Shown one piece after another: positions 8,679-59,285 of a stretch of 64,000 bases of DNA (position 1 is the stretch's first letter; each line of letters begins with the position of its first letter). The position numbers and the translations under genes were made by a program. Under the pieces are notes generated by a model. That model did not search any database, was not told the origin of the DNA, and was given only the letters and a program-made list of their open reading frames with translations. The stretch is from Rhizodiscina lignyota. Its lineage: Eukaryota > Ascomycota > Dothideomycetes > Aulographales > Rhizodiscinaceae. Location of the stretch: the NCBI GenBank assembly GCA_010015805.1, contig ML978124.1:2418001-2482000 (forward strand), written 5' to 3'.

Positions 8679-11378
8679 ATGTCCGGGTACAGGTTTACCT
8701 ATTCGTGGCAGAACAATAGCCCGCCTGTCAATCGGCCTCTTACTCCACCAGACCTTACCGAATGGGCACCAGACCCTCGGTTGCAGAAAATTGGTCTTGC
8801 AAACAAGCCAGCAGCTGAATTTGATAACTTCTATACACCTCAGAATCAATCCTTCTACTCAAAGTCCCCATATCTGCCCTTAGATCCAAAGCGGCGCGAA
8901 ATCCGGCTTGTCAAAGTTCTTGGACGAAAGCCTTGGGCCGAGTACGTTACAGCAAATCCTCAACGGGTGCAGAATGGTCTAAATGGAAAGTTCGCGAGAC
9001 CTCAAGAGCGGCGACTCCCTAGCAAAAAGGAGCTGTCTAATCCCTCGTCGTCCCTGCTAATGGCATCCAATCCATCGCCAATGACATGCGAATTGGTCGA
9101 CAAAGTTGCGCTTTCAAGAATCGATGGGCACTACTGCACCTTGTCGTATAATGCGGGGAAGCCAACGGATACAAAGACAATGATTGTGGACGGCATAGTA
9201 TTCAATGCGTTCGCAAATCTCGAGCACGCGATCGGATGTGCCTTCGAGAGTTGGTCATCAAGGAACCCCGGCAGGGAGCTGCTGCTATGGGTTGATCAAA
9301 TTTGCATCAATCAGGTGGACCAACTCGAACGAGGAAGCCAAGTTGCAATGATGAGAGATATATATCGCAGGAGCAATGAGACCTTCATCTGCTTATCCAC
9401 TCCCGGAGCAGAACACTGCTTATCATGGGTTCCTCGTGTCCCACGAAGGGTATCCAGTGGCCGGCCTTCCACACAGAGCATCGGGCCGCGAGAAGAATGG
9501 CCTGCCGTATCGGCTCTCAAAATGTGTCTTCGACGGTTACTTGTCGGACCAGATGCGTCTATCTCTCCTCCAATAGCCCAGCGTAGGCTTCAAGATACTT
9601 CGCATCGTCGGGATACCTCGCGTCATCGGGATACATCTAATCATGAAAATGCAGCACGCCGTCGAGCTACATCGAAGCATCGATATTCATCCTCTTCCTC
9701 CGTGTCAAGTCCAGAACCGAGCCCCCCACCTGTAGATAAAAATCTCCGGCGACATAACAAAACTCAGCCTACGAAGCCTGTAGCAACAGAGCATTCCGAC
9801 TTGTTGGCGCCTAAAAATGGCGTTGGAAAAACGAAATCTGCGGTAGATGAATGGGTGGCTGGGTCACCACGACCTCAGGGAGTAGCTGTACGTGTAAAAG
9901 TTGCGCCAATGCGACCGAACACTGTATCAGCGGAACAAGAGACTTCATTATCACGACCAGAGACTGTATCACTGCATGGAAATACCGCAATATCAAACGA
10001 AGTAACCGCCGATCGATTGTTGACTGGCCTAGAAGCCTTCACTACGAGCCAGTGGTGGGGTCGGTCATGGGTCTATCAAGAATTTATAGCATCTCCTCGG
10101 CCTCATTTTCTCTCAGGCTCCACTTCAATTCCTTGGACAGAGCTGGCACCTACTTTGGAGTTTATCTGCGGCGGCCTCGATGCATTTATTGACCCAATGC
10201 TTTCGGAAGCCATTACCAGCGCTTCGCAAGAGGACAAGCAAAAGAACAAAGATGCTCAAGAGGAATATCAGAGAAGCTTACGTGAATACGAAGAAAAGAT
10301 GAACATATATCAGCAGCAGAGCCTTCTGGAGTTGCGAAAGTGGTGGCAAGCGCGCCAGATTTCATCCCTATTAACATACGGGACTGGAAGCTTCAAAGAG
10401 GCGAAGCGTGAATGGGAAAATGATGTGCGAAACGGATCTGGCGAAGGTAGAATACTGACCAGGGGATTCAAGCCAAGCTGTTCGCGACCCAAGCCCCCAG
10501 TTCAGCAGCCATTGGCCGTAGCAGGAAAGCAGCGGGCCCAACACTTGTCTTCCCTTCAAAATCGGTTCCGAGCACTGAGTACATCGACAATCTCTTCGAT
10601 GGTGGAAGGCAAGGTGAACCTGCGAAGGTCTTCGGACCTAAAGACCATTCTACAGCATTCCAGACATTGCAAGGCATCAGACCCCCGAGACAGAGTTTAC
10701 GCATTCATCGGTTTGGCGGACAAAGAGTACGCAATTATCCCCGACTATTCCACGAGCAATACCGTAGTCCAGGTCCTAATCAATACCGCGCGGCGAATCA
10801 TTGAGCACGAAAAGAAACTTAGTATCCTCAAGCACGTGTGCCACGGCCGTGAAAAACTGGGCTGGTTGCTTCCTTCGTGGGTGCCTGATTGGACCAGCAC
10901 GGAGGTCGACCGAAGAATCAAAGACTCCGACTTGGTCTGGAGTGGCGGACAGAGGGAGAGATCGTTTGATGCGTCAAAGGGCCTGGTCACTCGGCCTGAG
11001 TTCCGGAAAGACGAAACGAACGAGTCCAACATGGATTTGAAAACCAAAGGTGTTTTTTTCGACTTTCTTGACGAGTATTACGAGGCCGACGAACCGGACG
11101 GGGCTGAGGATGCCTTTCCACATTTTCAATCTTTCTTGACCCAGAGCAGTCGGCGAGTTATTGCCCCCAAATCTGCTCTTTTGGACGATGAGGTCTGGGT
11201 TCTCCACGGTGCGTCAAAGCCTGTGCTTCTACGGCCGGAGGGTGATGATACGTATGGCTTTCTCGGTGAGATTTTGGTTTGTGAACGGAACGGCACTTTT
11301 TCGGATGTAATGTTCGGCAAGATGATTGAACTGGCAGAGCAAGGGAATGCGGAGACGAAGGATATCTGGATTGTGTGA
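8679..11378 (+). CDS. HET-domain (heterokaryon incompatibility) protein
   Basis: A single 899-codon exon from the ATG at 8679. The HET core is clear: YCTLSYN near residue 152, LLLWVDQICINQ near 206-217 and a following block through ETFICLS near residue 240. The second conserved part appears only after a long insertion: QWWGRSWVYQEF near residue 458 and later DPRDRVYAFIGLA near 668-680, followed by a Trp-rich stretch (PSWVPDW). Residues about 245-445 are low-complexity, including a short Asp-Thr-Ser repeat (DTSHRRDTSRHRDTS). HET proteins mediate non-self recognition and programmed cell death after fusion of unlike hyphae; the partner and specificity of this one are unknown. The family is large and fast-evolving, so no symbol is given. 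No intron is needed. Confidence 0.88.
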   Translation: MSGYRFTYSWQNNSPPVNRPLTPPDLTEWAPDPRLQKIGLANKPAAEFDNFYTPQNQSFYSKSPYLPLDPKRREIRLVKVLGRKPWAEYVTANPQRVQNGLNGKFARPQERRLPSKKELSNPSSSLLMASNPSPMTCELVDKVALSRIDGHYCTLSYNAGKPTDTKTMIVDGIVFNAFANLEHAIGCAFESWSSRNPGRELLLWVDQICINQVDQLERGSQVAMMRDIYRRSNETFICLSTPGAEHCLSWVPRVPRRVSSGRPSTQSIGPREEWPAVSALKMCLRRLLVGPDASISPPIAQRRLQDTSHRRDTSRHRDTSNHENAARRRATSKHRYSSSSSVSSPEPSPPPVDKNLRRHNKTQPTKPVATEHSDLLAPKNGVGKTKSAVDEWVAGSPRPQGVAVRVKVAPMRPNTVSAEQETSLSRPETVSLHGNTAISNEVTADRLLTGLEAFTTSQWWGRSWVYQEFIASPRPHFLSGSTSIPWTELAPTLEFICGGLDAFIDPMLSEAITSASQEDKQKNKDAQEEYQRSLREYEEKMNIYQQQSLLELRKWWQARQISSLLTYGTGSFKEAKREWENDVRNGSGEGRILTRGFKPSCSRPKPPVQQPLAVAGKQRAQHLSSLQNRFRALSTSTISSMVEGKVNLRRSSDLKTILQHSRHCKASDPRDRVYAFIGLADKEYAIIPDYSTSNTVVQVLINTARRIIEHEKKLSILKHVCHGREKLGWLLPSWVPDWTSTEVDRRIKDSDLVWSGGQRERSFDASKGLVTRPEFRKDETNESNMDLKTKGVFFDFLDEYYEADEPDGAEDAFPHFQSFLTQSSRRVIAPKSALLDDEVWVLHGASKPVLLRPEGDDTYGFLGEILVCERNGTFSDVMFGKMIELAEQGNAETKDIWIV

Positions 11379-28026: not shown

Positions 28027-28176
28027 GAGAAGTGTGTTATGAGAAGTGTGTTATGAGAAGTGTGTTATGAGAAGTGTGTTATGAGAAGTGTGTTATGAGA
28101 ATTGTGTTATGAGAAGTATATTGTAAGAAGTGTATTATGAGAAGTATGTTATGAGAAGTGTGTTATAAGAAGTATA
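28027..28176. repeat. 14-bp minisatellite, ten full copies plus a partial one
   Basis: The unit GAGAAGTGTGTTAT is repeated head-to-tail from 28027 to 28166, then part of an eleventh copy to 28176. The first five copies are identical; copies six to nine carry one to three changes each and copy ten matches the consensus. This implies recent growth at the 28027 end. It ends about 200 bp before the CHK1 start. Confidence 0.95.
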
Positions 28177-36186: not shown

Positions 36187-37245
36187 TATGAGGAAGGCTG
36201 TTGAAGTGATATGGCATGACTCAAGCTTGGCTGTACATTTTTCGTTCCATGCTAAAGAAAGCAACGAAAACAGGGATCTGAAGCATAGCTAGTGATGCCA
36301 ATCTCGAAATATGAGATCACAGAGCTGAACATGATGATGAAACCTTGCTAACATCTGAGGTGTAACGTAGGATCTCAGGTGCGTTGTACGGAGAACGTAC
36401 ATACACATCCTCCGTGTAACATTCCGGCTCCTTCATTCGCAAGGCCAACGTACGGACGCCGTTGAATTGCAAGACAATTGGAAGATATCGAGTCCTCAGT
36501 TGGCCTAGAAAGTTGATTGGTTATTCATCGGGATAGAGAGAATCCATCTCAAGCAGCGGGGCTGCAGTTGGAAGAGCGCAATGGGCTCCGAGACACCCTT
36601 CTTAGCGCGCGTATGTGACATGTCCATGCTGTCCTCCCCCACGCATGGCTCGTATGGAACAGTGCGGGTGTCTGGGGTCAGAGTGCGGAGAAGGCGGAGG
36701 GGGAGCGAATCGGAGGCACTGCAATGTGGGTGAGTCAGGGTAAGGAGGTCAAAGACGCGTCGCGCGCGGCTGATCGACCGTCATGGGTGTCTCTATAGCC
36801 TTTCGACTTCATCTCACCTTTTCGCCTTCGACATGGCGTGTTCTCAGGTGATTGTATCGCAAGTCGCCGACTTTTCACTGCGACGGATGATTAGCTGAGC
36901 AGCGGGTTCTCGCCATGAGGCTCTCGGAAGGCCGGCAGCCAATAAGAGCGGCGCAGGTGGGTCGACACGATTCAGGGCGGCACTCCGTGCTCGCTGCCTG
37001 TGACGAGATTGACAAGATGTTCCAGTCTGAATTTCTTACAAACTTCCAAATCTTTTTCTTCGCCTCGACCGTTGCTTCTTCACCCACCCCTTCAATTGCC
37101 TACTTACAGTCTCTACCACTCTGGTTTTCCACCTTTCAATTTTCTCCCGAGCTCAAGCTCTTGACAATCTCTGCGGACTATCGTAAGCAGCAAACGCATA
37201 TCGCCTCCTTATCACCGATAGCGTATCGAACGCTCCCACCCAACA
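36187..37245. other. Intergenic, promoter and leader of CCP1
   Basis: About 1.06 kb upstream of the cytochrome c peroxidase gene. An ACGCGT lies in a CG-rich stretch near 36755-36770, and the last 200 bp are CT-rich leader. No other gene is recognised. Confidence 0.5.
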
Positions 37246-38421
37246 ATGGCCACCGTAGCTAGGAACTTCACGCGCAGCGCGTTCCGCTCGACGCCCTCTA
37301 CGTTTCGAACTACAGCAGCACGTAGAACCTTCGTCAATGTCCCTCGCCAGACTCTCCGCCAAAGCTTCCGCCGTGGCTTCGCCGATGAAGCTGCCCCAAA
37401 GGCAGCAAAGGCAGAGTCCACTCCTCCTCCTCCGCCACCACCGCCAAAGTCAGGCCTAGGCTCCAGCAGTATCATCCTAGGAGTAGGCTTCGTCACGGCC
37501 CTCGCAGGAGGCTACTATGTCTACATGATAAACAACGCTACTGGCGCGAACGATAAGGCCGGTGCAAGCGGCAATTTCCAGCCCACCTTCGAGGACTACC
37601 AGAAAGTCTACAACACCATCGCGAAGGCTCTGGAGGAAAATGACGACTATGACGACGGCTCCTACGGCCCCGTGCTCCTCCGTCTCGGCTGGCACTCCTC
37701 CGGCACCTACGACAAGGAGACCGGTACGGGCGGCTCCAACGGCGCAACGATGCGCTTCGACCCCGAAAGCGAACACGGTGCCAACGCCGGCTTGAAAGTT
37801 GCCCGCGACTTCTGCGAGCCGATCAAGCAACAGTACCCATGGATCTCATATGGCGACCTGTGGACACTCGGCGCCGTCTGTGCGATCCAGGAGATGCAAG
37901 GACCAATAATCCCATGGCGCCCCGGCCGCCAGGACCGCGACGTGTCGTTCTGCACGCCAGACGGCCGTCTCCCCGATGCTGCGCAGGAGCAGAAGCATGT
38001 GCGCAACATCTTCTACCGCATGGGCTTCAACGACCAAGAGATCACCGCTTTAATCGGCGCTCACGCGCTGGGCAGATGCCACGCGGACCGCAGCGGCTTC
38101 GATGGCCCGTGGACGTTCAGTCCCACGGTGGTGACGAACGACTTCTACAACCTGCTGCTGAACGAGAAGTGGGCGTGGCGAAAGTGGGACGGCCCGAAGC
38201 AGTACGAGGACGTGAAGACGAAGTCTCTGATGATGCTCCCGGCGGATATGGCGTTTGTCAAGGATAAGAAGTTTAGGGAGTATGTGGGGAAGTACGCGAA
38301 GGATAATGATCTGTGGTTCAAGGACTTTTCTGCTGCGGTTACGAAGTTGTTTGAGTTGGGTGTGCCGTTCACGAGTGGCGAGGAGAGCAGGATGAGGTTT
38401 AAGCCCACGATTGAGTCTTAA
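37246..38421 (+). CDS. CCP1: Cytochrome c peroxidase, mitochondrial
   Basis: A single 391-codon exon. The enzyme reduces hydrogen peroxide with electrons from cytochrome c in the intermembrane space. The N-terminus is an Arg/Ser/Thr-rich mitochondrial presequence, followed by a run of eight prolines (about residues 60-67) and a hydrophobic sorting helix ([18 protein letters not shown]), the bipartite signal that is cleaved in yeast. The heme peroxidase core has the distal R146-L-G-W149-H150, the proximal His in [10 protein letters not shown] (H273) and the radical-site Trp in GFDGPWTF (W289), so all key residues are present. Length is slightly above the yeast protein (361) because of the presequence. 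The start ATG at 37246 is the first in frame and fits the presequence. Confidence 0.97.
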
Positions 38422-49385: not shown

Positions 49386-50644
49386 TTTAGCCAGGCTGTC
49401 GATGCAGCTTTGGTCAGCCGAACGCTGCCTGGTTCCGCGTCATGAGACAATAGGCAGCTGTTGAGGATGTAGAATGGACCTCTCAGAAGCTGATGAAGAT
49501 GTTGGATATTGGCTCGAGCTTCCAATGGATGGAGAAGACGACGTCGGAGGTGGGATGGTCCGACAACATGGCCACGCTTGGAGCTATTTTTGGCCCCTGC
49601 GACCCAAACGCGGGAAGCCCCGCGGCGATCCGCCAAAACAAAACAAACCACCACCAACCTCCATCTCAACTTCCATTCGGCTATCCACCGACCACTCACA
49701 ACCGCGGATTGTCGCTACGCCGCACGATTCTCTTGCTCATATTCGTTCATCACAGTATCCTCAAACTTTCCAACATGGTTTTCTGTACTCCTCCAATTGT
49801 GATAGAGCTTCGTGGCCTATCGTCTACCTGCGCCGCACATGTGGCTTGTAACAGCAGTGAACGCCTCATATCAACAACCCCAACCCAGCCCACCTTACGC
49901 TCGTTTTCAAGGCGCTCGGCGGGAAGGCGGGCAGCTCGAGGCCATGCTGAGACATCTCGGTCGCATCGAATGACAATTCTATACCCTTTTTGGGGCTTTG
50001 CGGAGAGTTGCCGTTCATCTTGGCCGGAGGCTTATGCACTAGTTCCACTACAGCGCTTAGATCCGCCGCGCTTAGAGACCACATCCCATTCGAAGGCTTG
50101 CCTTCTACCAGCTCTCACTCGTCGGTTGTTTCCTATCCGGCTGCATGTGCTGCTTATTTTTGCATCTGTTCTGCATGTCAAACGTCCTCGTTCCTGCCAC
50201 CTCACCACCTTCTCGCCTTCTGGAAATCCTCCGGAAGCGCGAATCATGGCACAGCTGCGAGGCCGGCGAGAATTCAGGCACCATGATTCCTTGACATTTT
50301 CGTAGTCAGTCCAATGAGGACAGTATGCATCTACGCGCTGCCTCCGAAGTTAGTAGGTTCTGTTATCGGGCTGAATCTCGAGGCTTGCTTTGCCTCACTA
50401 GGTTCATGGATTAAGCGTCGCGATATCTGCAAGCATTCACGGTGCATGAAACATTAGATCGAGCGAATAGTTGACTATGAGTGTGGTGTTTGTTTTGTCC
50501 GTTTATGTGACCGTGTTGACTTTTGTTCAGTCCATATCCGCATTCTCTGCTGATCGGCTCCAGTTCTCATCGTGTTCCTTTCTCCTGACTACCTTTGAGA
50601 CAAACAGCCCTGGAGAGCTGCAATTGTAATTCTTTCAATTCTCA
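49386..50644. other. Intergenic between divergent genes, no gene seen
   Basis: About 1.26 kb upstream of both the DUF3253 and the first DUF3176 gene. A 270-codon frame at 49493-50305 on the plus strand lacks family resemblance and overlaps two other long frames; it is likely chance. Confidence 0.5.
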
Positions 50645-52963
50645 ATGGCGCATCTTGAAATTCCAAAGGCTCCGGGCAGCCCTACTACTACAATTCATTC
50701 CCAATCTGATACGATGGAGTTACCCCCAGGGTGGCCGCTCAATGACCGAAACAGTCCGCAGTTCGTGAGCCCATCGACGCACTATTTCCAGAATGGCGCC
50801 TCTCCACCGAGGGCAACAGCCTATGTCACCGACTACCCGATTGCATTCGACGAGAAGAGGCCAATTGAGAACCCTGAGTTCGGTCTTCCTCAGATCCCGG
50901 AGGCTGCTGCCATACCGAATAACGCCTTCTATCCGTCCCACGAGGATGTGTTGGGCCCTCACATCACTCAATCCCAATCAACTAAAAAGAGCTTTCGGCG
51001 AAAGCGATTCAACTTCAAGAGCGGTATCCAGCGTCTCTACGAAAGCTGGGTTGACAACTGGTGGCTTTGGGAGTTGATGGCGTGGTGTCTCAGTGCTGTC
51101 TGTATGGGCATTATCGCTCTAGTCCTTCTCCTTCTAGATGATACCCAAACTACCACCATGGAGGTGACACTCAATTCTATCATATCCGTCCTCTCTGGTA
51201 TCGCAAAAGCTGCCCTTCTTCTGCCGACTGCAGAAGCCCTGGGCCAGTTGAAGTGGAGCTGGTTCTGGCGCGACTCGAAGAAAGTTCGGGATTTTGAGAC
51301 GTTTGACGCTGCAAGCCGCGGGCCTTGGGGCTCTCTAATGCTTTTGATCCGAACGAAAGGAAAGTGAGTCGAATTGATTCTGACTTGCAGGTCTTTATTC
51401 GGATCCACTGACTGATGCTGCAGAACGCTCGCTACTATCGGCGCCGTCATTACCATCCTCTCCATCGCTGTCGATCCATTCTTTCAGCAATTGGTCATAT
51501 TTCCCCAAAAATGGGTCGCCCAAGGCACTGGAACCATGCCGCAGCTTCAGACTTACTATGGTTCAAACTACAACATCACCATGGCTGGCTCTGCGTACTT
51601 CTCGGCAGACACGGAGTTGCGGAGTTTCTTGGAACCAATGTTTTTTGGCCACGATCTGCAACCAAAAATCCCTCTGAACTGCCCAACAAGGTAACAAATC
51701 CGTATTAGTCCTTCTGGAGTCTTTGGGACTAATGAGTGCTGCAGTAATTGTACTTGGGAGCCTTTCGATACTCTCTCGATCTGTAGTGCTTGCCACGACG
51801 TATCTGACCTGCTCCATTACGGATGTTACAATACCACTTTGGATTGGCTCCATAACGTCACCGGTCAAGAGAAATCGCTCCCTGTCATCGAGACTTGCGG
51901 ATATTTCTTGAATGCAACATCAGACAACCCAACCCTTATGAGCGGATACATCCCTAAAGGAGATCCAGCGTTGCAAGAAGTCTTGATTGCGAGGCTATTG
52001 TCTATGGTGACCCAGACAGCAGATGGATACAAGGTGTACTATGATGGGTCCATCCATTTCAAAGATATCGTCAATCCCATCGCAGACTACATAACGGTCA
52101 GCGCTCCGAACGGTGTGCCAAGCGTTTACGGAAACTCAACGCCTGTCGCACAAGAGTGTGTTTTGAACTGGTGCACACAAAAATTCAACATGTCCTACTA
52201 CAGTGGCAATTTGACACAAATTCCGGTAGACCCTCCGCTGCGGACAACCGAGAAGACTCCATTCCCGTGGGCGATGGACGCTCCAGTGGATGGCCAGCCA
52301 AATTACATCTACTATGCCAATTTGTCACTTACTCCTCCGGGTCAGAATCTTACATTTTCCTTGTCAAACGACACCTTTTTCCAAACCATCGTCACAATCA
52401 ACGAATTCCTGCCCTCGCTTCTGACTGGACGAAGTGGCGACCCCGAGATGCAGTACAGATTCTACAACACTATTCCCCCGCCATTTGTGCGGCCTATGAC
52501 TGTGAATCCGTTCTCTGACATCGTGAATTTGAACGACCGCGTTGGCAAGCTCATGACAAATGTGCTCCTTACATCTTTCGTGGGGGCGAACCTTCAGGTT
52601 GGCACAGCATGGGAGCAGGTGGTTTTTATCAACGTTCGTTGGATATGGATGGTACTCCCATTCACACTCCTTCTCTTTAGCTTGCTATTCTTACTTGCGA
52701 CGATCTTCAAGAGCGAGGATGAGAAAGGCGACATCGGCATCTGGAAGACATCTGCGCTAGCTGTCCTGTTGAATGGCCTCCGAGGAGACGTGCAGCGTCA
52801 AATGGGCGATTCGCACGAAATGGGCGAGGCACGAAAGAATGCTGAGGATGTCCGAGTCAAGCTGATGCTCAACAAAAAAGGCCGGTTCCGACTCTCTGGA
52901 ATCAACGGGCCGTCCTGGATGGTATCACCTCGAGGTGGACCTGGAGGGCGTACATGGTTTTAA
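50645..52963 (+). CDS. DUF3176 multi-span membrane protein (paralogue A)
   Basis: Exons 50645-51363, 51424-51690 and 51745-52963 (introns 60 and 54 nt) give 734 residues. After a polar N-terminus come helices in WWLWELMAWCLSAVCMG and SIISVLSGIAKAALLLPTA, the hallmark ALGQLKWSWFWRDSKKVRDF and ASRGPWGSLMLL, then IGAVITILSIAVDPFFQQ. A long presumed extracellular loop follows, with a Cys motif (CPTSNCTWEPFDTLSICSAC) and many N-x-S/T sites, and a final helix (about 600-630) leads to a basic tail. This is the DUF3176 layout; no biochemical role is known. It is about 40 percent similar by eye to the second DUF3176 gene at 55492-57592, which lacks the second intron. The Cys motif spans that extra junction. 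Confidence 0.88.
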
Positions 52964-53290
52964 AATGAACACAGTATGAGAGAATTTCACCGACTACAGC
53001 TCGAATTGAAATTGATAATGGAGACTTTTTTTTGTGACAGACAGACCCATTGATTCACACAGAGGAAACTATTGAAGACAGGCAACAAATCGTCGAGGAG
53101 CCCCTAAAGAGAACCGTGGAGCCACGCCCAACACACCGAACGCACCAAGGAAATCCAGAATTTTGGACGACGAGACGTCAAAATATACATCAGAAACATT
53201 ATCACAGAAGAAAAAGGTGGCCAAATGGAACACATATCTGCGTCGCACCACGGACTGCCTCGGACTCACGCCAACAACACTCTTCTTTGT
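52964..53290. other. Intergenic between converging genes
   Basis: About 330 bp that should carry the 3' ends of DUF3176-A and of the repeat-peptide gene. No other feature. Confidence 0.5.
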
Positions 53291-53867
53291 CTAGTAAGAG
53301 CCTGGCCCTTTCTGCATCAAGTCAGCGATACATCAACTGGTTCTCACCGGGGCATGACTTACGCCATTTGTTCCTCTCTTGGCTGGTTCAATGGGACCTG
53401 GAATCATTCAGTACATCGCTGCTTTCATATACAGTGAGACACATACTATACGAGCCTGGGCCTTTCTGTACCGAGTCAGCGATACATCAAACGTATCATC
53501 AGCCGGGCTTAACTTACACCATTCGTTCCTCTTTTATACGAGCCTGGGCCTTTCTGTGCCGAGTCAGCGGCATATCAGCGGGTTCCCAGAGGGACCTGAC
53601 TTACACCATTCGTTCCTCTCTTGGCCGGTTCAATGGGACCTGGAGTAATTCAGTACATGGTTGCTTTCATCTACAGAGACTCGAGTGTCACATACTGTAT
53701 GAGCCTGGCCCTTTCTGTGGCGAATCAGTAACACAGCCATGTCATAAGCAAAGGCATTACTTACACCGTTTGTTCCTCTCTTCATCGGCTCGATCGGGCC
53801 TGAGCTTGGTCAATACGCGAGCCTTTCTATCTAGGAGTGCACCAATACTGTAAGAGCCAGGTCCCTT
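53291..53867 (-). repeat. Tandem microexon-pair repeat of the precursor gene
   Basis: Each full unit holds a 19-nt exon (KGPGSY plus one base), an intron of 49-56 nt, a 35-nt exon (SPIEPAKRGTNG) and an intron of 49-52 nt, about 155 bp in all. Introns of the same type are alike between units (for example the CGCTGACT branch in introns 5, 6 and 8, and the GTACTGAAT branch in introns 4 and 7), so duplication copied exons and introns together. In the third copy the two exons are fused into one 36-nt exon without SPIEPA, so that unit is about 88 bp. Confidence 0.9.
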
Positions 53868-54042
53868 CTGTTGTTGGGTCAGCTTGGGTCCTTTGATCGG
53901 GCCTCTACCGACTTACGCCGTCTACCCTCTTTGCGAACGGCTCCACAAGCTCCCCATTTGCAACAGGAACCGCCAATGGCGCCGCCGCCACAGTAGCTGC
54001 CAGGGTTGCAGTGAGAAGGACGAGAAAATCGCGGGGCATCAT
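53291..54042 (-). CDS. Kexin-processed repeat-peptide precursor (nine exons, five peptide copies)
   Basis: Exons on the minus strand: 54042-53917, 53867-53849, 53799-53765, 53714-53696, 53639-53605, 53553-53518, 53465-53447, 53397-53363, 53311-53291. They sum to 345 nt, 114 residues plus stop. Residues 1-21 form a signal peptide; a short propeptide ends EPFAKR. Lys-Arg pairs at 38-39, 55-56, 73-74, 85-86 and 103-104 each precede one repeat: VDGKGPGSYSPIEPM, GTNGKGPGSYSPIEPA (copies 2 and 4) and GTNGKGPGSY (copies 3 and 5). All eight introns (49-56 nt) have GTAAGT, GTATGT or GTATTG donors, a CTGA- or TTGAC-type branch and an AG acceptor, and every junction keeps frame. This is the design of fungal alpha-pheromone precursors and of dikaritin-type RiPP precursors, whose peptides are freed by Kex2. 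The core is Gly-rich with a Tyr and no Cys or Trp; I do not recognise it. No UstY-like gene is nearby; DUF3176 genes flank it on both sides. Confidence 0.88.
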
Positions 54043-55491: not shown

Positions 55492-57592
55492 TCACTGCGA
55501 AGATACATGCTTTGAAAATCTCCACCGACCTTTACGCCCGCGCAATCGAACTATCAGTCGCGGCTCGTTGCGTCTTCTTCGCACTGTTGTCTGCATGTTA
55601 TCCTTCTCTTTGATCAAATCTTCTCTCAGTCCATGCATGAGAATCGCCAATGCCGAATTTTTCCACACATCTACGTCACCTGATCTGCTGTGCAAGATTG
55701 CTGCTACCAGGAATGCTAAACTTGAAAATAAAAGCACCAGTGGCAAAGAAAACCAAACCCATCGAATATGCACGTACGTCTGGGGACTCAACGCTATGCC
55801 TTCGACCATCTCAGTCCCATATGACGATGAGCGCATGACGTTCGTCATGACTCCCGCAATTCTGTCCAGCTGAGCAGTCCAGTTGTTTCCTGTTAGCCAG
55901 GGATTTGACGGAAGTTGAACTAGATCCGGGGGCCCTACGGGGTCATCTTCATACCTGACCGTGGGCGTGGAATTGCGGGCCTTTGATGTCGTGAATGCCT
56001 GCAAAGGTGACGACCAAAACACGATGATTTCGTCGAATTGGGTGTCATTGGAACTGGGCCCAAAAGTAGTGTTCGACCCTGGCGGTCGAATTGATGGCAC
56101 ATCATATATATAGTAATCCGGGCTCCCATCATCCATATCTTTAACATGCCATTCCGGGGAAGACATCTTCGTTCTGTTATCGTACTTTGCCACGACCGAT
56201 TCGTTATATTCTCCATTGAGAACAGATGCTTGGACCTTCTTGACACACCAATGGAGATTGCACTCCTGAGCTAGTGGTCTTGTATTGGTCTTCACGCCAT
56301 CGTAACCGCCTGGAGTTGCGATGATCATGACATCCAGAAGTGCAAGTGGTATATCCTTGAAGTGCATCGAACCATCGTAATGGCAAGTGTTACCGACGTA
56401 CGGAGCATTGAGAACGAGTGTGCGCCCAACTAAAACTTCGGATTCATTGGCAGAATTCTCATACCCGCTGACGAGCACTGGTGATGCGCTTGTGCCATTG
56501 AGGAAAAATCCGCACGTTTCGGGTGCTGGAACTTTTTTGTTGACATTAGTCGTAGTGTTGGCCGCCCATTCTTGACTGTAATCTACCACCGAGCTCTTCC
56601 AATTGACTGGCGTGGGCATGCATCTGAACGAGAGGAGGTCAGATATATCTGCACACTCGCTACAGACCCCCAAAGTTTCAAATGCGGGAAACTGGCAATT
56701 TCCAGTGGGACATTGTACTTTCAGATCCGGTTCCTTACTACTCTCATTGGAGTAGAGCAGAGGGGTAACAAAATAATTCATTGAGACATCCGGAGTAAAC
56801 AGTTCGCTCCCCATTTCATGAACAGTAGCCGGAATGAGACTGTCCCATTGATATACCACGCTTCTGGGGAGCATCGCTTCTTTGACAGGTACACTCCGCA
56901 GAGGAAATACTACAATTTGCTGGAAGAACGGGTCGAGTGCAATGGAGAGCAGCATGACTGCCGCACCTATAGTAGAAAGAGCGCTTTGAGACATAGTTGG
57001 TCAGCTGCACCGTATCCACTGCTGAGCAATCCTTGATCACATACCGGCCTCTCGTTCTCAGGATCAACATAAAGGAGCCCCAAGGTCCTCGGGTTGCCTC
57101 ATCAAATGTTTGAAAATCATTCACGTCACGGCCCCGAGTGGCAAACCAATTCCATTTCAGCTGTCCAAGCGCTTCTGCGGTCGGTAGCAGGAGCGCCGCT
57201 TTGGCAAACGATCCAAAAACAGAGACATAGGAGTTGATCGTTAAGCCCAAGGGCCACTCCGGAAGTGGGCGACCTTCATAGACGGCCAGGAAAATCGCGA
57301 TTGCACCCATGCAGAAGGCCGCAAAACACCAGCTGAACAATTCCCAAAGCCACCATTCGTCGACCAGGTTCCAGAAACTGCTGTTCGGCGCGACCCTCCA
57401 TGAGGTCTGTCGTCTGAAGTCGCGAACAGTAGGTACGTCATCTGCCGCTATTGACTGGTTGTTACTGCATTGCTCAGGAGTATCGTTTCGTGTGAATGAA
57501 GGGATCCAATGTCGTCTCTTTTCGGCAATCGCCCAGGAGTAGCTCGGAGGAGGACGGGGAAACACAGTGATGGACTCGACGTCAGAATCCAT
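55492..57592 (-). CDS. DUF3176 multi-span membrane protein (paralogue B)
   Basis: Exons 57592-57045 and 56983-55492 (61-nt intron) give 679 residues. The start at 57592 was taken because the longer reading begins at a non-ATG codon. Conserved parts match paralogue A: WWLWELFSWCFAAFCMG, KAALLLPTAEALGQLKWNWF, FDEATRGPWGSFML, STIGAAVMLLSIALDPFFQQ, the loop motif CPTGNCQFPAFETLGVCSEC, DISDLLS, and a late helix (about 600-625) before a basic Arg/Lys-rich tail. The first intron sits at the same place as in A (after RTRG), but A's second intron, in the Cys motif, is absent here. The large loop is rich in N-glycosylation sites. Function unknown; the pair brackets the kexin-repeat gene. Confidence 0.88.
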
Positions 57593-59285
57593 AGCATCCA
57601 ATCGCTGGAGTTGATGTCTCAAAACTGGTCAACTGACGTCTCAATAATGATAGGAAAGAAATGAAGGTCGCGTCACAAGCACATGCGTGAGTCCTGAATA
57701 TTAGAAGTTATTCAAACTATACAAAACAATGAATATCAAGGTGGCATAGCCCCAGTACCAACACAACATGAGACACAAAGAGATGCGGGTGTTCTCCCAG
57801 GCGCCATGGAGACAGGAGGTGATGTTGGAAGATTGTCGTTCACATCATCATTGACAGCCTCTGACAGGCGCGAGCAAGATGGAAGCGCGCTCTCCCCAGA
57901 CATGTTGGCTTGCGGAAAGTCGCCGCACAGAGAGATTCTCCTATATCGAGGTTGCGTGTAGGAGCAGGAATACATTGCAGAACGCCTACAGAGCGACTCG
58001 ATACTTCAGCGGCTATCGCAGACGTCGGCAATTCAGATGAACGAAGGCGGCCAAAAAGAAGCGCGGTGGTAACGCTGGCCATGCGCCGACCGACGCACTG
58101 CAGGTCAAGCAAAAGCGGCCGAAAAATGCTGCAGCAATGAGCGAGGGCCAACATGCGAACGCCGGACGAGAGCTTGGCCGTGGTTCGCAGGGCGGCCATG
58201 CAGGGCATTGATAATCAGGGCGCTCAGGGGAGAGACTCCTTTGACCAGGATAAAAGTGCACCAAGCTTAATTCGGGCCCCACGGCGCTTACGGAGTATTT
58301 ACTACACCAAGATATTAATATCTACAATTCTGGGGAAGCATTACGCGACGGCGAGGCAGACAAGAACTCGCCGAGTTCTGCAACTCGTATTTCAGCATAT
58401 GTATCATGTATGCAGCTCCTACGTCTGGGCGGCAGGAGTGATGGCGCTTCGATATCAGTGTCGACACGGATGGCTTTCCTGGCAGCACACCCCTTCAGCC
58501 GGGCGCACATCGATTACAATTCGACGTCCCCAAGAGCCTCAAAGTTAAGGGTCAACGAGGGCACCCACATGCAGTCCTTCGTCTCCCGCGAACGTTCTGT
58601 TTTCCTTCAAAGATCGCGTTATTTTCAATGAATCAGCCTTCCACTAATTCCGATGCTTGACCTCTTAGTTACCAGAGTCGTTTCATGTTCAAGTCCCCTC
58701 TACTCATTAATAATTGACAAATGCTGACATGTGATCCTCTACTGTATCTCGTATTACACTGCAGCTACTACTTGAACCTCTTCCTTGGTGACACAATTCT
58801 CAAACAGACGATCCATCGCTTAAAGCGATCGAGAAGAGAAACGGCTAAGGCTTGCCGTGGCAAGAGTGAGAGGCCGAACATCTATGCATTTGTTCAGTAC
58901 CGCTTGTGAGCGATAAAGAGAAATGGTTGCACCGAAGCAAGGCTTGAAATGGTGGGGTAAGTATCAAGGATATCCCGTGAGAGAATACGGAAATTGCAAG
59001 TCCTCCCAGACATTACAGTTTTGTGATAGACAGAGCCTGTACCTTGCTCACACTCCTCAGACCACTCCTCAGACCACTCCTGAGAACATGTCTGTATTAA
59101 CAGGTCTATCTCAATAGATGCATCTGCTGTGCTGCCTGCTCGGGCAGGTTATTGTGCCTGCCATTCTCTCGCTTCTTGGACAATTCATGTCCAGCCGCAA
59201 GATCGTTTATCGGTTGCTTATGAGCATCCGATTAACAGCAGATCAGTCATGATCCATCTGGACCTGCAGTTCCCTCAGATCGACA
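57593..59285. other. Intergenic, no gene seen
   Basis: About 1.7 kb between DUF3176-B and PEX8. It has only short overlapping frames. A three-copy 12-bp repeat is at 59052-59087. A fragment reading KWWGKYQGYP near 58950 recalls a chromodomain but is too short to support. Confidence 0.45.
59052..59087. repeat. Three copies of a 12-bp repeat
   Basis: ACTCCTCAGACC occurs twice in tandem, then a third copy with two changes. Too short to assign a role. Confidence 0.8.

Follow-up and report, generated by a model that had tools for sequence, protein, structure and literature searches.

The locus described here raises the question of whether five copies of a short peptide word, scattered over all three reading frames of a 752-nt stretch of the Rhizodiscina lignyota genome, belong to a single gene, and if so, what that gene makes. 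The stretch lies within a window of 64,000 nucleotides, by which we mean the whole piece of DNA that was read for genes (C4:2418001-2482000 of the 33.4-Mb assembly). R. lignyota is a Dothideomycete of the order Aulographales, in agreement with the Pezizomycotina that had been guessed at from the sequence. A sequence-only reading of the window had placed here the spliced precursor of a family of repeated peptides and had named alpha-pheromones and dikaritin RiPPs as fungal products made from precursors of this design.

On the minus strand, which the earlier reading had not named, nine exons between positions 54042 and 53291 join in one frame to encode 114 residues followed by a TAG stop codon (Table 1). 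All eight introns are of the GT-AG type and measure 49 to 56 nt each. Their donors read GTAAGT (five of eight), GTATGT (two) or GTATTG (one), every acceptor reads CAG, and a branch-like word (CTGAC, TTGAC, CTGAT or CTGAA) starts 14 to 15 nt before the end of each intron. The joined 114-residue frame bears out the coordinates and the nine-exon, in-frame structure with consensus splice sites that had been proposed, and the exon lengths agree with the earlier remark that none after the first exceeds 36 nt, this being the length of the longest. The five cores are spread over all three genomic frames, and the ATG frame, if left unspliced, ends after 45 residues; splicing as modelled is therefore needed to give the conserved peptide.

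Table 1. Parts of the precursor gene, listed 5' to 3' by exon, and the two DUF3176 genes on either side of it (window coordinates).
Feature	Position	Strand	Length (nt)	Content or remark	Basis
Exon 1	53917..54042	-	126	ATG, hydrophobic leader (MMPRDFLVLLTATLAATVAA), pro-region (APLAVPVANGELVEPFA; its boundary with the leader is a guess), first KR (53931-53926), VDG	translation, hydropathy
Exon 2	53849..53867	-	19	core 1, KGPGSY; phase 1 at end	translation
Exon 3	53765..53799	-	35	SPIEPM-KR-GTNG	translation
Exon 4	53696..53714	-	19	core 2, KGPGSY	translation
Exon 5	53605..53639	-	35	SPIEPA-KR-GTNG	translation
Exon 6	53518..53553	-	36	core 3, KGPGSY-KR-GTNG; short unit without SPIEPA and without a type-B intron	translation
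Exon 7	53447..53465	-	19	core 4, KGPGSY	translation
Exon 8	53363..53397	-	35	SPIEPA-KR-GTNG	translation
Exon 9	53291..53311	-	21	core 5, KGPGSY, with TAG immediately after	translation
Type-A introns (n=5)	53868..53916 (intron 1); 53764-53715; 53604-53554; 53517-53466; 53362-53312	-		phase 0, between GTNG or VDG and KGPGSY	
Type-B introns (n=3)	53800..53848 (intron 2); 53695-53640; 53446-53398	-		phase 1, within the Ser codon after KGPGSY	
DUF3176 gene	50630..52960	+		convergent with the precursor gene; context, no functional link shown	PF11374, 2.8e-25
Second DUF3176 gene	55495..57628	-		same strand as the precursor gene; context	PF11374, 2.2e-28

The spliced translation begins with MMPRDFLVLLTATLAATVAAAPLAVPVANGELVEPFAKR and continues with VDGKGPGSYSPIEPMKR, GTNGKGPGSYSPIEPAKR, GTNGKGPGSYKR and GTNGKGPGSYSPIEPAKR again, before a last GTNGKGPGSY. 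Behind the initial MMPRD lies a hydrophobic stretch (FLVLLTATLAATVAA) with a hydropathy of up to 2.44 over 10 residues, on which the leader is putatively assigned. The protein holds five Lys-Arg sites, as had been counted before, and five KGPGSY cores. Five copies of a decapeptide had also been claimed; the core indeed occurs five times, but the exact GTNGKGPGSY stands in four units and the first reads VDGKGPGSY. Similarly, the SPIEPA extension does follow two of the cores, as stated, although a third extended unit carries SPIEPM; units 3 and 5 have no extension. The residues after KR are VDG or GTNG, with no Ste13-type XA/XP dipeptide among them, and there is no Trp in the precursor and no Cys in the cores. 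A Pfam scan of the precursor matched no family at E 0.01, and no mention of KGPGSY was found in the literature searched. Taken together, the frame, leader, KR sites and cores support the description of a hidden, spliced and predicted-secreted precursor of the Kex2 type with an unfamiliar core.

Because the copies have diverged in their DNA, the repeats carry their own coding test. Variable columns among the copies number 1, 1 and 16 at codon positions 1, 2 and 3, respectively (binomial p = 1.7e-6). Across the five copies of KGPGSY, five of the six third positions vary and the residues never do (pS 0.64, pN 0). The five KR sites behave in the same way (pN 0, pS 0.80), as does GTNG (pN 0, pS 0.50) in four of the five copies, the VDG of unit 1 having been omitted from this count because it has no residue-for-residue alignment with GTNG. 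The sole residue difference among the three copies of SPIEP(A/M) is at the last position. When an equal number of differences was placed at random, all five KGPGSY were retained in 0 of 200,000 trials. Mean p-distances are 0.38 for type-A introns (n=5) and 0.41 for type-B introns (n=3), and 0.17 and 0.21 for the exons. Judged by these differences between copies, the KGPGSY cores are kept by purifying selection. Furthermore, GTAAGT or GTATGT occurs seven times on the gene strand of the 752 nt and not once on the opposite strand; about 0.3 would be expected, against a background of 49 such words in the 64 kb when both strands are counted, the seven of the gene included.

Words of six residues (at least four of them different) that recur four or more times inside 2 kb are found in the window solely here, on both strands, and in a short tandem repeat near 28.0-28.2 kb. 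The word scan covered the window and the loci inspected, 285,940 bases in which overlapping loci are counted repeatedly and from which the six loci of the precursor gene are excluded. It also picked out short tandem repeats with periods of 14 nt and 13 nt, at about 28029-28172 of the window and about 9329-9503 of locus L026, respectively.

The recurrence of words on both strands bears on whether the pattern is a minus-strand coding gene at all, the alternatives being that the repeats are non-coding or that the plus-strand frame at 53038-53850 is the gene. This frame stays open for 271 codons and its words recur too, EPGPFC for instance five times. However, the plus-strand frame reads copies of the EPGPFC type in differing phases, the differences between repeats concentrate at the third positions of minus-strand codons, and the splice words within the 752 nt are confined to the minus strand. 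We consider such alternatives extremely improbable. The 271-codon frame was rejected as a gene because its copies read in different phases, and its openness was judged incidental. That the minus strand holds a real, functional and spliced gene, apparently unannotated, is well supported by the features of the DNA itself.

By design, the predicted precursor is a Kex2-processed repeat protein (KEP), with tandem near-identical motifs and dibasic Kex2 sites. The hydrophobic leader would carry it into the secretory pathway, a Kex2-type protease would cleave behind each KR, and a Kex1-type carboxypeptidase would then remove the KR; one P_proprotein (Kex2-type) match is present in the whole genome, at C5:221382-221642. 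The linear peptides released in this way would be GTNGKGPGSY (two copies), GTNGKGPGSYSPIEPA (two) and VDGKGPGSYSPIEPM (one), for which the calculated neutral masses are 936.430 (10-mer), 1530.731 (16-mer) and 1532.718 Da (15-mer), respectively. The core, which is conserved and contains Pro-Gly and a Tyr (C-terminal in the 10-mer), would work extracellularly, most probably as a self-directed or community signal. We favour, as rather probable, a Kex2-processed repeat protein of R. lignyota that yields linear GTNGKGPGSY peptides with or without SPIEPA, their most likely role being that of an extracellular signal.

A signal of the mating type, either an alpha-pheromone or a second ligand of Ste2, is an alternative. 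Ascomycete alpha-pheromone precursors of the Dothideomycete two-Cys type share with ours the predicted secretion, the five cores and the KR-type processing sites, and one Ste2 gene is present in the genome. There is also a loose likeness between the end of yeast alpha-factor and the Lys, Pro-Gly and C-terminal Tyr found here. However, the genome already has a canonical two-Cys alpha-pheromone precursor (L050, around the pattern cluster at C6:1851507-1851821) with a leader, a single frame and five CHLVGQPC cores, whereas the gene studied here is split by introns and its product contains neither Trp nor a Cys-bearing core, lacks a Ste13-type spacer behind KR and matches no Pfam family at E 0.01. 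In the passages of PMC6339444 that bear on this point, the Ste13-type XA/XP signature is the mark of good hormone candidates, and the two-Cys pheromone type, which the CHLVGQPC precursor resembles, is recorded in 13 Dothideomycetes outside the Pleosporales group. The spacers of the CHLVGQPC precursor are of the EPEP/DPEP type (EPEPH and DPEPH, for example) and its core units end in LKVR, LKAR or KKKR; its 309 aa are 100% identical over 309 residues to R. lignyota NA57DRAFT_76356, a "hypothetical protein" in NCBI. The strict WCxxxGQxC pattern occurs at one place genome-wide (L028; reversed control 1), where a single copy stands with no KR, and the Pleosporales-type PYGxPxG pattern likewise at one place (reversed control 2), again a lone copy (L059). 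A relaxed two-Cys pattern hit 49 places, its reversed control 24; of the 30 inspected, three (L050-L052) fall in the one five-copy precursor and 27 are single copies. The MAT alpha-box (PF04769) had no match in the genome and equally none in the control genomes, so this null is no evidence of absence. With a canonical two-Cys, five-core precursor elsewhere in the same genome, and with KGPGSY being neither of the two-Cys nor of the PYGxPxG type, the alpha-pheromone reading was rejected, and a role as a mating pheromone or second Ste2 ligand appears very improbable.

Another known use of this design is in modified peptides: the precursor could feed a RiPP of the dikaritin or epichloecyclin type, with an unlinked gene supplying a UstYa-type oxidase that cross-links the core Tyr. 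Every core contains Tyr and Lys, which would suit a modified product, and UstYa enzymes exist in trans, since UstYa (PF11807) has 76 matches (gene pieces) in the 33.4 Mb. A peroxidase-family frame at 37222-38418, about 15 kb away, is a possible partner. According to passages of PMC6514808 and PMC9233826, epichloecyclins come from a KR repeat precursor and are cyclised at Tyr; PMC6514808 also mentions methylation of Lys. Their precursor GigA shares with ours a signal sequence (here predicted) and KR-separated repeats, as far as the passages of PMC6514808 go; it differs in its core, and our gene has no UstYa nearby. Dikaritin precursors of the ustiloxin and phomopsin type likewise have KR-separated repeats and a Tyr in each core. 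The nearest UstYa match on the contig (C4:2218506-2218676) lies about 252 kb from the precursor gene, however, whereas three of the 20 UstYa loci inspected with 1.5-kb flanks (L002-L021) contain a KR repeat precursor, and the part of PMC7329392 that deals with the matter gives a mean UstYa (DUF3328) distance of 3.09 genes. No UstYa, methyltransferase or P450 family was matched among the 29 window frames scanned, and no UstYa was found in six frames between the precursor gene and the contig end (90/90 candidates scored), a search that a gene of very short exons could escape. A clustered dikaritin RiPP was accordingly rejected on the whole-genome PF11807 search, and modification by an enzyme acting from elsewhere seems unlikely to us. 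Of the two fates that had been suggested, a modified Tyr or a linear peptide, the latter is the likelier.

The three UstYa-side precursors carry the repeats GELYQNPSEKRD (L004, minus 226-19), KREEDPFKWDKT (L012, plus from 3309) and KREEANPLIASGAYGIYRK (L016, plus from 2860), each in one continuous frame over its visible part; each reaches or nears the end of its locus and none is complete. These loci are likely dikaritin-type clusters. In contrast to their unsplit visible parts, the repeats of the gene studied here are split, and no UstYa gene adjoins it. The 76 UstYa matches look like an expansion.

The linear peptides might instead act on another organism or serve as surface material, that is, as a host- or competitor-directed effector or as a coat peptide like Ustilago Rep1. 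KEPs with effector or coat roles are named in passages of PMC6339444 and PMC9769878. The locus, however, offers nothing that points to either role, and the short peptides look soluble, not amphipathic, by eye. R. lignyota is, moreover, a wood saprobe, which counts against such a role. We regard this reading too as improbable, and an extracellular signal remains our preferred function.

Candidate relatives of the precursor were sought among proteins and in the genome. In 5.8 billion protein sequences, no homologue was found at E <= 10 among 20 candidates (proteins of about 63-367 aa), and a second search, in which scoring was limited to the 8,000 candidates with the most words in common (again about 63-367 aa), gave no relative and a best E of 0.13; a longer product of faulty annotation would escape this size range. 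The two weak matches, P0008 (E 0.13) and P0009 (E 1.3, annotated PF07004), are apparently unrelated by eye. P0008 is a protein of 250 aa with HHWTYGKG repeats (HHWTYGKGPGSY-like) and no KR between them. DNA and pattern searches of the 33.4-Mb genome revealed no second copy of the gene. A KGPGSY-like pattern occurs at eight places, five in the precursor gene and three elsewhere (reversed control 4), and the KRGTNG pattern at six (reversed control 2): four in the precursor gene, one on C6 as KSGTNG and one on C16, where there is no repeat precursor. The precursor is possibly a lineage-restricted KEP.

KEPs that lack homologues are common. In the passages of PMC7329392 that give these counts, KEPs that have no DUF3328 neighbours and are not annotated as pheromones make up 74% of 7,878, and stand-alone KEPs (no homologues) 2,560 of 7,878. 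Ours shares with stand-alone KEPs, as portrayed in passages of PMC6339444 and PMC7329392, a leader (putative here), the tandem repeats, a KR before each core, the lack of a Pfam family and the lack of a detected homologue. It differs from them in having two introns inside each full repeat and later exons of 36 nt or less. The word "intron" is absent from the main texts of both papers, and the terms intron, exon and KEP are all absent from PMC12048977. Neither the studied gene nor introns in every KEP repeat are described in the passages of PMC11333574 or in the literature searched, a scope outside which most subscription papers fall.

Two introns per full repeat are an unusual feature, and their sequences tell something of how the array grew. 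Introns can be aligned from unit to unit, with pairwise p-distances of 0.14-0.41 among units other than unit 1, and loosely with unit 1 (0.39-0.56 for type A, 0.53-0.55 for type B); the unit was therefore probably duplicated with its introns already in place. The array would have grown as a unit with its two introns in place was copied in tandem. In unit 3, the type-B intron and SPIEPA are missing together, exactly in frame; the segment and its intron may have been lost there, or never have been present, leaving a clean 10-mer. Skipping of whole units would preserve the frame, since the 19+35 exon pair and the 36-nt exon are, by simple arithmetic, multiples of three. A bolder proposal would see in this gene the first example of a hidden class, that of fungal genes for signalling peptides with intron-cut repeats, in which alternative splicing could alter the core count and the balance between 10-mer and 16-mer, the product being a non-mating signal of a new type and the class being missed by surveys of annotated proteins. 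We think it unlikely that the whole of this proposal holds.

The product class, KEP, is already known; what the architecture shows is what annotation-based KEP surveys can miss. They would probably overlook genes of this kind, because no match to the precursor emerged from the protein searches, although the database does include an NCBI protein from R. lignyota. The KEP survey of PMC7329392, in the part that describes its input, began from 14,491,621 annotated proteins. Repeats that carry their own introns provide a built-in coding test, and raw genome sequence could be screened with it for further peptide precursors. Should the peptide prove to be a signal, it would join the non-mating peptide signals of fungi, of which, to our knowledge, few are known.

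In the surrounding window, 19 of the 29 frames scanned (27 of the 50 listed frames together with two others) match a Pfam family at the E-values applied, the families including DUF3176 (twice), CENP-N, DUF3253, bZIP, DUF3237, ABC transporter and peroxidase. The two DUF3176 genes are convergent to each other and flank the precursor gene; genome-wide, DUF3176 has 15 matches.
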